Part shown: piece by piece, positions 21,959-26,648 of the stretch
Position numbering within the stretch: the first letter of the stretch is position 1
Layout of the letters: every line of letters begins with the position of its first letter
NCBI GenBank assembly: GCA_002695025.1
Contig: NZNV01000025.1
Span: forward strand, 62,001-126,000
Source of the DNA: Owenweeksia sp.
Lineage (GTDB): Bacteria; Bacteroidota; Bacteroidia; Flavobacteriales; Schleiferiaceae
DNA: 64,000 nucleotides
Reading direction: 5' to 3'
Made by a program: the position numbers and the translations under genes
The notes under the pieces: model-generated
Told to the model about the DNA's origin: nothing
Databases searched by the model: none
Seen by the model: only the letters and a program-made list of their open reading frames with translations

Positions 21959-23203
21959 TTATTCGTAGCGTAAAGCTTCTATCGGATCAAGACGGGACGC
22001 CTTATAAGCAGGGTATAAGCCGGAGATAAGGCCTACTACAAAACAAAGGGCCATAGATCCGGATATCCATTGCCAGGGAATGATGAAACGGCCACCCAGG
22101 ATCATGGATGTAAGGTTGCCAATAAGAATACCGAGCAGAATACCTGCTATACCTCCGAAAAGGCATATAATAATGGCTTCCGTAAGGAATTGACTCCTGA
22201 TGACCTTGGCCTTGGCTCCAATAGCTTTACGAACGCCTATTTCACGGGTACGTTCTGTAACGGAAACCAACATAATGTTCATCAGGGCAATGGCCGCCCC
22301 AAAAAGGGTTATAGCAGCAATCAGTACAGCTGCCAGCGTAACATACTCCAGTTTTTCAATCAAGGTTTCGGATAGACTATCACTTTTCAGTATGCCAAAA
22401 TTGGATTCTTCCTTGGGTTTTAACCTGCGCACCTTACGCATAACTGCGGTGGCTTCCGATACGGTATTATCCAATTGCTCGCTGCCGGGAGACATGACAC
22501 TCACCGCGAAGCTCTGGCTGCTCCGGCTAAAGCGTGAGCGAGCTTTGGTTATGGGGATGAAAACAGATTTGTCGCCACCAAAGCCCATAGCGCTGCCTTT
22601 TTCCTTAAGCAAGCCTACTACCTTATACCGGGTTCCTCCAATCTCAATCATTTCCCCAAGGGGATCTTTTGCTTTGAACAGCTTGTTTTTTACTTCCTGT
22701 CCTATAAGGGCTACCGGACTTGCAGATTCGAGATCTGAGGTGGTAATATTCCGGCCTTTTTCCATTTCGTAGCCCCCGGTCTTGATGTAGTTTTCATCAC
22801 AGGCCCAAACGGCTATATTGGGGTTGGTCTTTTCCTTTCCGTAGGTTACCTCTGCTATACCGGAGGCGATATAAGACACACTTACTACTCCTGGTTTATC
22901 ACCAAATTTTTCCTTGAATTCCAATGCTTCATAATAGGTGATGGGAGAATAGATCTGTGGCTTTTCACCATTGCGCCCTACTTGAATGTCTGATTTTACG
23001 TTGCGGATGGTAAAGGTGTTGGCACCCATAAGAGCAAATTGCCCGGTAAGAGAAGACTTTATAACATCAATAGACGTAAGGATACCAACCAGTGCGGTAA
23101 TACCTATGGCAATGATGAGTCCTGTAAGTATGGTCCGGAGCAACTGGCCGCGGACGGATTGCATAGCGATCCTGATATTCTCAAATAAAACCCCTTTTAT
23201 CAT
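21959..23203 (-). CDS. ABC transporter permease, MacB type
   Basis: 414 residues from ATG 23203; the frame is open to 23380, but that part would run into the divergent promoter and gene. One N-terminal transmembrane helix ([22 protein letters not shown]) is followed by a large periplasmic MacB_PCD domain at about 45-260. Then come three C-terminal helices of the FtsX fold, with [15 protein letters not shown] between them. It resembles MacB/FtsX-family permeases for lipoproteins, peptides or macrolides, working by mechanotransmission. No ATPase gene is adjacent, so its nucleotide-binding subunit must be encoded elsewhere. Confidence 0.9.
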
Positions 23204-23254
23204 TCTGGAATTAAGAAGGTCTAAATTATCAATTCTTACACGAAAAAGTCCTGC

Positions 23255-23262
23255 TATTTTTG
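23255..23262 (+). promoter_or_regulatory. -7 element at fusion gene start (leaderless)
   Basis: TATTTTTG matches TAnnTTTG and ends 6 bases before the ATG at 23269, so transcription should start at about the A of ATG. The in-frame TTG at 23260 is part of this element and is not the start. Confidence 0.62.
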
Positions 23263-23268
23263 CGGAAT

Positions 23269-25737
23269 ATGAAGAAGCTTCTGGTAGTAGGTTGGGATGC
23301 GGCTGACTGGCAAATAATAAAGCCCTTGATGGAGGAGGGAAAGATGCCGGTCCTCCGGCAGTTAATGCAAAAAGGAGCAAGTGGCAATATAGCCACTCTA
23401 AACCCTCCTTTAAGCCCCATGCTATGGACTTCCATCGCTACTTCTAAAAGAGCGTATGATCATGGTATTAAAGGTTTTGTGGAGGTGGATACCAATAAGG
23501 GAGAAGTAAGACCCGTACGCGCTACTTCACGCCAGGTTAAAGCTTTTTGGAGCATACTCAATGAGGCGGGGTTGAAAACCAATGTCATCAATTGGTGGCC
23601 CTCCCATCCGGCTGAAAGGTTGAACGGTATATGTGTTTCCAATGCATTTCATCAAAAAGCACCTGCCCCGGGTGAGGAGTGGCCCCTGGATAGAGGAGCA
23701 GTGTTCCCCGAGGGCCTCAGAGAAACCTTAAAAAATCTACGCTTACACCCTTCAGAGCTTACGCTGGCGCATATTGAACCTTTTGTTCCCCGGGCATCAG
23801 AGCTGGATCCGGAAACCGACAAGGTTCTGAAACCCTTGATGAGAGTACTGGCACATTGCAGCTCTGTTCATAACGCTGTTACCTGGGCTATGGAGAACTC
23901 CGAATGGGATGTAACAGCTGTATATTATGAAGCCATTGATCATTTCAGCCACCTGGCGATGAAGTACCACCCTCCCCGGCAAGAGGGTGTGGATCATGAG
24001 GAGTTTGAGCACTATAAAGGAGTGGTGGAAGCCGCGTATCGTTTTCACGATATGATGCTGGAAAGGTTACTTTCCCTGGCCGGTGAAGATTGTCACCTAC
24101 TATTGGTTTCTGATCACGGTTTTGAATCGGGTCAGTTAAGGACCCTGGAACTTCCGGATGTACCTGCGGCTCCTGCTCTGGAGCATCGTAAATACGGTAT
24201 CCTGCTGGCAGCCGGTCCGGATTTCAGGACTGGTGAAAAAATATACGGAGCCTCGCTATTGGATGTTACACCTACGATTCTGCATCTTTTTGATCTGCCC
24301 ATAGGTGAGGATATGGAAGGCACGGCAAGACTGGACCTGTGGAAATCTCCGCAGGAGGTAAGCTATATTCCCACTTGGGAGGGCATAGGCCGTTTTCCTG
24401 CATTCCTTTCATCAGAACAGGTTTCCGATCAAGTAATGATGAAGGAGTTGGAGGACATGGGATATATAGACCTCCCCTCCAGTGATAAGGTTATGGCGGT
24501 TAAACAGGAGTTGGCTTATAACCTTTGCGTCAGTCTTGTAGACGGGAATCACCTGGATAAGGCTTTGCAGAAAGCCCGGATGATGTACGGTGAATACGGG
24601 GATGGACGTACCGCTATGCTCCTGGCGGATATACTCTTGAAAAAGGGGGATTATGAAGAGCTGGAAACCCTGCTTGGGGAACTGGCACCCTTCAACTCTC
24701 AAAACCCACAGTACATTTTTCTGCAGGCTCTTTTGTACTTATACACCGGTCGTAGAACTGAAGCCCTTTTGCAATTCAAAGATATTGAAGCGGCCGGAGC
24801 GCAATCAGTGCAGTTGTACAATGAGATTGGAAAGGCCTTATTGCTAAGTGGCCAGACTGATGAAGCCTTTAATTATTTTCAAAAGTCCCTTCAATTGGAT
24901 GCTGAGAACGCTACAGCTCTCACCAGTTCAGGGCAGTGTTATATTGAGAATGGGAAATATCCTGAAGCCCTCGAAAGCTTGGAAGCAAGTCTCCAGAATC
25001 TTTTCTACCAACCCCACGCCCATTACCTGATGGCGGTATGCCTGTTCAAGATGGACAAAAGGAAAGACGCTATAACGGCTCTCAACCTTTGTTTGCATCA
25101 GGCTCCTAAACACCAAAAGGCGAGAGTGTTATTAAATGAGTTAATAGAAAGTCCTGCTCATTCAGGCGAGCCTGTAATAATTGTTTCCGGCTTACCCCGC
25201 AGTGGTACAAGCCTTATGATGCAAATGCTCCAGGCGGGAGGGGTAGAGGTCGTCAGCGATCATACCCGTAGTTCGGATCTGAATAATCCACAGGGCTATC
25301 TTGAAGATGAAAGGGTGAAAAGGCTGGGAATAGACGCAGAATGGATGCCTGAAGCGCGGGGTAAATGCGTCAAGGTAGTTTCACAATTACTTCGTTATTT
25401 ACCTGCTACGGAGCGGTACCGGATTATTCGTATGCAAAGACCGCTTACAGAAGTGGTGGTTTCACAGCGGGTAATGATGGGGCAGCATAAGCAGGATATC
25501 ATGCGTAATTTTCCTTTTCAGCATGCTGCTAACCTTCAACGGGAAGAAGAGCAAATGACCGTATGGCTGAGCCACCAGCCTAACGTAAGCTGTATGGAAG
25601 TAGCCTACCATGATTGCCTGCAAAAGCCTGAGGAGGTGATGAGCGAAGTTGCGGCATTCCTGGGTGAAAATATAGATGTTCATAAGGCTGCTGAAAAAGT
25701 AGACCTAAAGCTTTATCGGAATATATTGGGGAAATAG
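23269..25737 (+). CDS. Alkaline phosphatase superfamily-TPR-sulfotransferase fusion
   Basis: 822 residues. Domain 1 (about 1-370) is a type I phosphodiesterase/nucleotide pyrophosphatase-like member of the alkaline phosphatase superfamily. Its metal site is GWDAADW (D10), the nucleophile region is [12 protein letters not shown] (Thr 54), further metal ligands are in IDHFSH (D224, H228) and SDHGFES (D282, H283), and [13 protein letters not shown] closes it. Domain 2 (about 425-625) contains at least four TPR motifs ([19 protein letters not shown] and similar). Domain 3 (about 630-822) is a P-loop sulfotransferase with SGLPRSGTS at 640-648, the PAPS 5'-phosphosulfate loop type. There is no signal peptide or membrane segment, so the protein is cytoplasmic by sequence. 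Catalytic residues of domains 1 and 3 look intact. Substrate unknown. Confidence 0.88.
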
Positions 25738-25775
25738 ATTGTTTTTAGGATTTTTGAGGCGCGAAAGGCATTATC

Positions 25776-26648
25776 ATGGAAAACGATAAAATTGAAAGAC
25801 TGGTATTGAAATATACCGGCATGGCATCAGCTATATTAGGGGTGCAGTCTGTAAATGGCCAGGTTATATGGACGGATTTACAGGATACTACCCTTAGTAC
25901 CAATGGTGCTATATATGATCTGGATATTGATCAGGATACCGGCAATGTGGTGGATTTTCGCATTGTGCAACTGGTGGATTCCACTATTTATAACATCTCC
26001 GGTGTTCTGGTGCGTACCGGTGGTAATGCCGCCAATCAGGTTGTAGGTGTTAATTATTCCAATTATAATTATGCTTTTCGTCTGAACGTTGGTGATACCA
26101 TTGGTCCGGGAAATACCTTTAAAGGTATCAATCAGGCCCGCAACATAGGTTATCTTGCTTTTGAGGTGGACGGCACTACCTATCCGAACAGTCAATGGGT
26201 GGATACCACATCGGGAGTAACCGATGGTTTCCTCGGGTTGAGGTTTACAGCCCCTACTTCAGACAGTACCACCGGAACTTTCTACGGTTGGGTAAGGCTT
26301 GATGTTTCTGCAGACCTACGTTCGGTTACTATCAAGGAATTTGCCTACCAGTCTCAGCCGGATTCAAGTATCTATATGGGAGAAGGTGCTCCTATTAACA
26401 TCAATGAATTTGAGGTGGAGAAGCCGGCCATGGTGCAAAGGGGTAAGTTCCTGGATATTTCGTTGCCTGAGACATACACACCTGCCGCCAGGGTAAAACT
26501 TATTGGTTTGGATGGTAAGATGATCCGCGAGTATGCTTTAAGCGGGTATAAGAACCAGATATCCCTGGAAGACCTTCCCAAAGGTATTATGGTAGCGCAT
26601 ATTTCCAGCAATGGAGTGGAAGCTACCCGTAAAGTGGTGGTCTACTAA
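25776..26648 (+). CDS. Secreted protein with type IX-type C-terminal domain
   Basis: 290 residues. The N-terminus has a charged extension (MENDKIER) before a signal-like stretch ending SVNGQ. The mature part begins VIWTDLQDTTL and is beta-rich with many Asp, Gly and Thr; it has FYGWVRLDVSAD, a lectin-like strand pattern. The last 70 residues (KLIGLDGKMIREYALSG, then EDLPKGIMVAHIS and a final RKVVVY) fit a type A sorting domain of the type IX secretion system. It is predicted to be exported to the surface. It starts 39 bases after the fusion gene with a weak -7 match (GATTTTTG), so the two may or may not be co-transcribed. Confidence 0.8.
   Translation: MENDKIERLVLKYTGMASAILGVQSVNGQVIWTDLQDTTLSTNGAIYDLDIDQDTGNVVDFRIVQLVDSTIYNISGVLVRTGGNAANQVVGVNYSNYNYAFRLNVGDTIGPGNTFKGINQARNIGYLAFEVDGTTYPNSQWVDTTSGVTDGFLGLRFTAPTSDSTTGTFYGWVRLDVSADLRSVTIKEFAYQSQPDSSIYMGEGAPININEFEVEKPAMVQRGKFLDISLPETYTPAARVKLIGLDGKMIREYALSGYKNQISLEDLPKGIMVAHISSNGVEATRKVVVY

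Follow-up and report, generated by a model that had tools for sequence, protein, structure and literature searches.

On what does a protein act that carries a hydrolase and a sulfotransferase in a single chain? The question is raised by a gene at 23269..25737 (forward strand) in a window of 64,000 nucleotides, by which we mean the whole stretch analysed, from Owenweeksia sp. (Schleiferiaceae; assembly GCA_002695025.1, contig NZNV01000025.1, positions 62,001 to 126,000). The open reading frame (ORF) starts with ATG at 23269, stops at 25735-25737 and encodes 822 residues, in agreement with the frame and coordinates of an earlier note made from the sequence alone (the original prediction). According to ORF analysis, Pfam and an AlphaFold2 model, the product joins an alkaline-phosphatase-superfamily domain, tetratricopeptide repeats (TPR) and a sulfotransferase domain, and appears to have no signal peptide. 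A chance origin of this three-domain protein is excluded. The original prediction read it as an enzyme that adds and removes groups on one scaffolded substrate, or that processes a sulfated polymer precursor. We found that its gene is paired across phyla with the gene of a secreted protein, here called the partner, and that the type of signal peptide of the partner co-varies with the enzyme. We think that the partner is the substrate of the enzyme. Together, the observations suggest that proteins may be modified or steered ahead of export in a dedicated manner that has not yet been described.

A secreted partner beside the enzyme gene

The gene following the enzyme gene encodes an exported protein of 290 residues (25776..26648, forward strand) with a type A tail of the type IX secretion system (T9SS), as judged from Pfam, NCBIfam and the clustering of neighbouring genes. 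The two genes lie on the same strand and are separated by 38 bases (25738..25775). None of the terminator-like sites identified falls in this gap, and both genes are probably on one transcript. The core of the partner carries the signature 'LDxDxDGxxDFRI ... TDGFLGLRF ... HYGWxRLDV ... TIKDFAYN', and no Pfam or NCBIfam model matched it; only the T9SS tail was recognised. This C-terminal sorting domain (partner residues 228-289; 26457..26642, forward strand) scored 25.2 bits with TIGR04183, above the cut-off of 23, and 25.5 bits (E = 1.7e-5) with PF18962, just below the cut-off of 27.

When the neighbours of enzyme genes were clustered, the partner was the recurrent one. It lay no more than 2.5 kb from the enzyme gene at 80 of 91 evaluable loci, a locus being evaluable if the partner was found or if both flanks reached at least 1 kb, which slightly favours the pairing hypothesis. 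By group, the pair was present at 41 of 44 loci in the host's own family, at 27 of 31 in other Bacteroidota, and at 12 of 16 in Planctomycetota, Verrucomicrobiota and one Rubrivivax metagenome-assembled genome (MAG). Two loci in the total need a caveat: L037 is apparently a record of the own-family genome G027, and the assignment of a partner at L203 is doubtful. Leaving both out gives 78 of 89. Near-identical lineages (e.g. L060-L065) were counted as separate loci. The partner profiles were built from such neighbours, and the independent test of adjacency is confined to loci L185-L204 (less one duplicate), which stood outside profile building. Here the pair was found at 15 of 19 loci, plus one doubtful case, and the genomes of the three unpaired loci (L188, L189, L193) carried a partner with the signal-peptide motif described below elsewhere.

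The pair occurs in all four orientations, with the partner upstream or downstream and on the same or the opposite strand. T9SS-tailed partners and those with a PEP-CTERM tail have a common core (hhalign probability 98.5, E = 2e-15, 174 columns). The PEP-CTERM model TIGR02595 gave 20.1-26.1 bits, against a cut-off of 16, at L049 (PVC group), L051 (Phycisphaerales), and L052 and L057 (both Verrucomicrobiota); among the five partners scanned outside Bacteroidota, such a tail was not listed for that of L061, a Phycisphaera MAG. The pairing of enzyme and partner genes thus extends across phyla. The idea of one bound substrate in the original prediction is supported, and what had been missed is the secreted neighbour, the likely substrate. 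A sulfated polymer precursor gained no support: the recurrent neighbour was the secreted partner (the other neighbour clusters were not scanned against family libraries).

The signal peptide of the partner changes with the enzyme

Sequence reading and profiles place the signal peptide of the window partner at about residues 1-29 (25776..25862, forward strand) and assign it to a K-L-x-x-Y-x-x-x-A class. Its invariant tyrosine, Tyr13 (codon 25812..25814, forward strand), stands at the start of the hydrophobic stretch and is a predicted recognition site and a possible sulfation site. Partners alongside a fused enzyme generally show K/R-L-x-x-Y, followed by a hydrophobic stretch of small residues. 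Tyr was present in all 86 distinct signal peptides compared, and the next most conserved column was Ala, with 73 of 86. These peptides came from enzyme-bearing Bacteroidota and from L044, L055 and G008; those of G151, L048 and L204 were excluded, as were the partners of unfused systems in Verrucomicrobiota and Phycisphaerales. In the Phycisphaerales record with a fused enzyme (L044), the signal peptide of the partner is MRRLEQYGIMVAAG.

In the class sample (395 genomes, the host included), a partner of the motif type was found in 30 of the 31 genomes with a fused gene, each of which was read, and in none of the 360 without any match to the enzyme. By position alone, that is, by a match reaching the Tyr column, the counts were 30/31 and 3/360, and G497, G499 and G584 were removed after reading. 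Sixteen enzyme-less genomes of the class had a candidate and all were read; 15, G492, G519 and G570 among them, had partners with an ordinary signal peptide, and one match was internal to an unrelated frame. Within the host's own family, genera without the enzyme also retain the partner, with an ordinary signal peptide. In genus g16 (L124-L126, L140), the flanking genes are the same, the enzyme gene is absent from between them, and the signal peptide of the partner at this site is of the ordinary kind.

With training restricted to sequences from beyond the own family, a model separated 41 enzyme-bearing from 21 enzyme-less distinct own-family signal peptides with an area under the receiver operating characteristic curve of 0.90, and scored more than 5 bits in 31/41 and 0/21, respectively. 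A simple motif expression gave 40/41 and 1/21. It was fitted post hoc, and the trained model is the fair test. The motif profile matched 18 proteins in 21 genomes, of which 17 were partners and the 18th, a weak match, was ordinary on reading; in the host genome the neighbouring partner was the single match. That other proteins carry the motif was considered and rejected, the candidate in G025 having an ordinary signal peptide and that in G499 being an internal stretch. When partner proteins were scanned against the libraries, which contain models for YSIRK and KxYKxGKxW, neither was listed at E values of 1 or less, and the motif itself differs from both.

The mature core belongs to one family with and without the enzyme, and the signal peptide is the part that changes. 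In unfused systems, in which the hydrolase and TPR lack the sulfotransferase fusion, the Tyr position is mostly occupied by Phe, Leu, Ile, His or Cys. In a tree of 137 mature partner domains, enzyme and motif agreed in 130 rows and differed in seven. The enzyme label needed nine changes on this tree, four of which were forced by supported branches. The type of signal peptide therefore co-varies with the enzyme, and the correlation is strong in numbers with few certain switches, because only four independent pairs are supported.

Catalytic domains of the enzyme and the link to PAPS genes

Pfam matched PF01663 at residues 4-301 (E = 5.8e-24; 85.7 bits, cut-off 23), TPR models at about residues 415-620 (TPR_2, E = 2.3e-15), and at the C-terminus PF13469 (Sulfotransfer_3, E = 1.5e-9) and PF00685 (Sulfotransfer_1, residues 637-803, E = 3.8e-5). 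These four models passed their curated cut-offs; some other TPR-type models listed fall below theirs. The original prediction had proposed a structure prediction of the full chain, and an AlphaFold2 model from a 25-row alignment reached a mean predicted local distance difference test score (pLDDT) of 90.5 and a predicted template modelling score (pTM) of 0.80. The TPR superhelix occupies about residues 406-627 (24484..25149, forward strand), with modelled helices at 407-626, so the central TPR block is confirmed. Residues 4-9 form a beta-strand of the core in this model. This is compatible with a cytoplasmic location and agrees with the earlier view that the enzyme lacks a signal peptide. The host genome has a single copy; two further matches are TPR stretches only.

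The hydrolase domain comprises residues 1-362 (23269..24354, forward strand) and was assigned to the alkaline phosphatase superfamily, close to nucleotide pyrophosphatases/phosphodiesterases (NPP), by conservation, a profile match and VIA-align. Its six metal ligands are D10, D224, H228, D282, H283 and H306. The original prediction had named the first five and overlooked H306. D10, D224, H228 and S49 were present in 83 of 83 aligned rows, and D282, H283 and H306 in 82, the remaining row being gapped there, so that apart from this gap no loss of catalytic residues was seen in homologues. Position 54, which had been proposed as the nucleophile, is variable, with T, S and N in 56, 19 and 8 of the 83 rows, and Thr54 is therefore excluded. 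In a profile alignment to phosphonoacetate hydrolase, the residue opposite Ser49 is Thr in the sequence of 3szy and Ala in that of 3t02. Ser49 is the likely nucleophile, because it is invariant, which Thr54 is not, and because it aligns with this Thr/Ala position. VIA-align gave Z scores of 26-27 to PafA, ENPP1/3/7 and Xac NPP, with root-mean-square deviations of 2.5-3.5 over about 270-330 residues, and 24-25 to choline sulfatase. The stretch S49-P-M-L-W appears unlike the formylglycine motif of sulfatases. A phosphodiesterase activity with zinc would be expected of a member of this type.

The sulfotransferase domain covers residues 635-822 (25171..25734, forward strand), on the basis of an alignment of 27 domains, a profile search of the PDB, and Pfam. 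Invariant in the 27 domains are PRSGTS at 643-648 (the 5' loop), D664, R667, K702, and R724 and S732 of the 3' site; the P-loop SGLPRSGTS at 640-648 is as originally described. PF13469 matched 26 of the 27. The profile found 45 PDB sequences at E<=1, with protein-tyrosine sulfotransferase 1 (TPST1) first (E = 5.3e-6). Thirty-nine were named 'sulfotransferase', and the other six (a SULT1C3 variant, TEG12 twice, Teg14, a polyketide synthase entry and a 'putative uncharacterized protein') are presumably sulfotransferases as well. No kinase or GTPase was among the 45. Another P-loop kinase fold, which the original prediction had named as the alternative, is ruled out by this search. The fold class is taken from the profile search, full-chain Foldseek and VIA-align being dominated by hydrolase and TPR and having barely probed this domain.

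The fusion had been called unusual. Literature searches, with subscription papers mostly outside their scope, found no characterisation of the domain combination and no report of the enzyme-partner pairing or of the signal-peptide co-variation. Rare it is not. In the own family, 66 of 88 genomes had a match of some kind, seven of them to the TPR only, and 59 matched part or all of the hydrolase domain, mostly at full length. In the class sample, 35 genomes had a match, comprising 31 fused forms, three split forms (G495, G677, G727) and one fragment, when the two best candidates per genome were scored at E<=1e-25. In the phylum sample (296 genomes; three candidates per genome at E<=0.001), the only full-length match besides the host was in G151. 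Named records of Winogradskyella (among them W. marincola, L042), Hyunsoonleella (among them H. aestuarii, L043) and Neptunitalea and the Phycisphaerales MAG of L044 also have the fusion. The Rubrivivax MAG (L048) has a split form with the sulfotransferase gene 43 bases behind, and in two Planctomycetota MAGs (L053, L054) a convergent sulfotransferase gene adjoins a shorter hydrolase gene. In many MAGs of Verrucomicrobiota and Planctomycetota, the hydrolase and TPR occur alone, without sulfotransferase. We would say that the two activities belong together, because they are fused and repeatedly close.

Some variants of these loci were noticed in passing. The 'PVC group' contig of L049 has two genes for the hydrolase and TPR, each with its own candidate partner, and one of them runs into a sulfotransferase domain cut by the end of the contig. 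Some of the fused proteins (L190 and L192 among the loci) begin with a PEP-CTERM-like stretch (EGSLGLLALGxxGL), which at L189:7531-7815 forms a separate frame of 95 residues just upstream of the fused gene; the two such pieces that were scanned had no Pfam match. A second, secreted-looking alkaline-phosphatase-like gene (VGIVxDQMRYDxIYxYW), named by eye, lies near the fused gene at L193:3133-4785 and L187:5938-7728. At L187:5281-5904, a separate Sulfotransfer_2 gene stands two genes from the fused gene.

The original prediction had also linked the sulfotransferase to 3'-phosphoadenosine 5'-phosphosulfate (PAPS), and the gene context supports this. In G507, a gene for adenosine 5'-phosphosulfate (APS) kinase lies directly downstream of the fused gene (PF01583, E = 6e-65), and in G659 one lies beside it in convergent orientation. 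In G677 and G727, a cysC-cysD-cysN row ends in the split sulfotransferase, beside an Rrf2-type gene and the hydrolase-TPR gene; cysD and cysN were named from PAPS_reduct and GTP_EFTU matches and gene order. Altogether, of the 33 enzyme-bearing genomes of the class examined outside the own family, 4 have an APS kinase gene next to the enzyme gene or, where the enzyme is split, next to its parts. Anywhere in the genome, it was found in 32 of these 33 (fragment genome G644 excluded). The 36 genomes used for comparison were picked from earlier tables and not at random; 19 of them had a strong match, or 23 if weak ones are included. The sulfotransferase is thus tied to PAPS genes. At G000:C21:431500-432787 in the host genome, the APS kinase gene adjoins the single PAPS_reduct match of that genome, and sulfotransferase matches occur at seven places besides the window gene; it seems that PAPS serves sulfation there.

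Two further features of sulfur genes were seen. A gene for an Rrf2-type regulator lies between the hydrolase-TPR gene and the cysC-cysD-cysN-sulfotransferase row at L204:4255-4671 and L224:2288-2704 (PF02082 shown for L224), which suggests sulfur-responsive control. Among the genomes of genus g18 of the own family (e.g. G074 and G067; loci L071-L075, L081-L083), several have a single, shorter PAPS_reduct match only.

A proposed step before export and its rivals

We propose that a dedicated cytoplasmic enzyme recognises the signal peptide of its partner and probably sulfates its Tyr before export; in our judgement, this has about an even chance of being right. Recognition of the precursor would rely on the K-L-x-x-Y-x-x-x-A-A/G signal peptide, in which Tyr marks the n/h border, and would most likely take place in the TPR groove. 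Sulfate would be transferred by the sulfotransferase domain, probably from PAPS, and the invariant Tyr is the likeliest acceptor. A sulfate there would bring a negative charge into the n-region, so that export through Sec would be delayed or redirected until the precursor is ready. The hydrolase, with its two metal sites and Ser49, may carry out a second step of the phosphodiester or sulfate ester type, on the same precursor or on a nucleotide. The partner would next be exported through Sec and finished by the T9SS in Bacteroidota; in Verrucomicrobiota and some Planctomycetota, its tail is of the PEP-CTERM type. We infer that enzyme and signal peptide meet physically, that Tyr is the acceptor, that export is affected and that the hydrolase takes part, and sulfation is our hypothesis for the chemistry. 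We read recognition and Tyr sulfation as the simplest account because the enzyme is cytoplasmic, has peptide-binding repeats and a TPST-like domain, and because the Tyr is invariant in a signal peptide that varies with the enzyme. An extended version is a reversible export lock, in which the Tyr sulfate would cancel the positive charge of the n-region and block entry into Sec, and the hydrolase or a later step would remove or by-pass it, giving a timed or placed release. We consider this version unlikely.

Several observations weigh against recognition followed by Tyr sulfation. Because signal peptides are normally cleaved, the mature protein would not retain such a modification. The rank of TPST1 as best match depends on two short stretches. 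The Fisher values we computed ignore phylogeny, and among the four supported independent pairs the motif went the same way in 1-3 and never the opposite way, which is not significant in a sign test. There are also exceptions in both directions. G151 has a fused enzyme and a distant partner without the Tyr, the sole exception in the class; the own-family genome G008 has a motif partner and no enzyme was found in it at 99% completeness; four divergent paralogues in enzyme-bearing genomes have ordinary signals; and the post-hoc motif expression also matches one enzyme-less peptide (L128). Hydrolase-TPR proteins without sulfotransferase adjoin the same type of partner, and Tyr is present despite the lack of a sulfotransferase fusion in at least two cases, L055 and one L052 partner. 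With these two and G151 as exceptions, the notion that Tyr strictly tracks the sulfotransferase is suggestive only. As for PAPS, 18 of the 24 enzyme-bearing genomes of g18 have no detectable APS kinase, nine of them being at least 90% complete, and the sulfotransferase residues are intact in the 15 readable of these 18, with the Tyr motif kept in the partners read. Genus g16, which is without the enzyme, retains APS kinase in 18 of 22 genomes. That APS kinase co-occurrence proves sulfation therefore holds outside the own family and is contradicted within it by g16 and g18.

The main rival is recognition without modification. The protein would then be an escort or targeting factor, whose TPR reads the Tyr signal peptide and delivers the precursor, and whose catalytic domains sense PAPS or 3'-phosphoadenosine 5'-phosphate (PAP), or regulate, leaving no covalent mark. 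This would explain why the enzyme gene is kept in g18, where most genomes carrying it have no detectable APS kinase, and why sulfotransferase-free hydrolase-TPR proteins are paired with the partner. The motif lies at the n/h border, as in special signal peptides with a role before translocation (YSIRK/GXXS), and in the T9SS regulator PorX, zinc-induced changes of the alkaline-phosphatase-superfamily domain outweighed its catalysis (PMC11320123). Against this rival, the catalytic residues of both domains are invariant in the aligned sequences, which is unusual for pure sensors, the enzyme is linked to PAPS synthesis genes, and the signal peptide has a single strictly invariant hydroxyl-bearing residue. 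We regard it as possible, if somewhat doubtful. An enzyme for small molecules or glycans, with a soluble nucleotide-linked or glycan substrate whose product the partner merely binds or displays, the operon being shared for that reason, is in our view improbable. In bacteria, most sulfotransferases do modify small molecules or glycans, the usual substrates of NPP-type hydrolases are nucleotides or lipids, and the host genome has its sulfotransferase matches at seven other places. It would, however, give no reason for the signal peptide, and not the mature domain, to change with the enzyme, nor for the invariant Tyr, and the recurrent neighbour is a secreted partner (no scan for glycan or lipid families was made on the other clusters).

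It is also conceivable, though very unlikely, that enzyme and partner were inherited as a block and that the signal-peptide type is a neutral mark of lineage. The small number of supported switches and their sign test would permit this. However, g16 genomes without the enzyme gene have a partner without the motif at that very chromosomal position, a genome with the enzyme may have motif partners that are not next to it, and the gene order varies among lineages. The Tyr is moreover invariant in a part of the protein that normally drifts, and the Phycisphaerales record with the fused gene (L044) has the same motif. The original reading, that the protein both writes and erases sulfate (or phosphate), with a single scaffolded substrate or a sulfated polymer precursor as its target, appears to us scarcely credible. 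Both active sites are intact, and enzymes of the alkaline phosphatase superfamily are catalytically promiscuous. The hydrolase, however, scores slightly higher with phosphatase and phosphodiesterase structures than with a sulfatase, it is also found without the sulfotransferase, and nothing was seen that points to a polymer. Mostly right in its observations and wrong on the nucleophile, the original prediction is overtaken in its interpretation by the secreted neighbour.

We know of no system that combines these features, and several share some of them. KxYKxGKxW is a class of signal peptide with a function before translocation and a Tyr near the n/h border, and YSIRK/GXXS is likewise a short conserved motif with Tyr near this border on few surface proteins. 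The present case differs from both in its motif, in its Gram-negative hosts and in the co-variation with a soluble enzyme. The hydrolase domain resembles NPP, ENPP, PafA and phosphonoacetate hydrolase in fold and metal ligands. NPP-type relatives use Thr as nucleophile; the domain here differs from these enzymes in being cytoplasmic, fused to TPR and equipped with Ser as its likely nucleophile. PorX also connects a phosphodiesterase domain of the alkaline phosphatase superfamily with T9SS-exported proteins (PMC11320123). Unlike the window enzyme, PorX carries a receiver domain and no sulfotransferase, and it regulates the secretion system without being bound to a single cargo. A parallel in chemistry would be TPST1/2 and RaxST. 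TPST1 is the best solved match of the sulfotransferase domain. RaxST sulfates one Tyr of the exported precursor RaxX, its gene adjoins that of its substrate, and up to 2019 no other case of tyrosine sulfation had been documented in bacteria (PMC6637879). In contrast to TPST and RaxST, the window enzyme is fused to TPR and a hydrolase, and its partner is T9SS- or PEP-CTERM-tailed and, in the window, about 290 residues long. The invariant Tyr here is in the signal peptide, whereas that of RaxX falls within the predicted mature peptide.

Signal peptides are commonly regarded as address labels that can be swapped for one another. An enzyme that tracks the signal-peptide type of one surface protein, in Bacteroidota and in the Phycisphaerales case, would open a new layer of export control. 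To our knowledge, no covalent modification targets a signal peptide, and the export lock, if true, would be the first. It would also mean that at least two bacterial phyla have a system for sulfating proteins, and that the signal peptide belongs to a new class. The proposal would also give a testable function to a large set of alkaline-phosphatase/TPR/sulfotransferase proteins and to an uncatalogued family of surface proteins.

On the other side of the enzyme gene, an ABC-permease-like gene, named by eye, lies divergent from it at 21959-23380 of the window (reverse strand), and homologues in its cluster were found at 37 loci.

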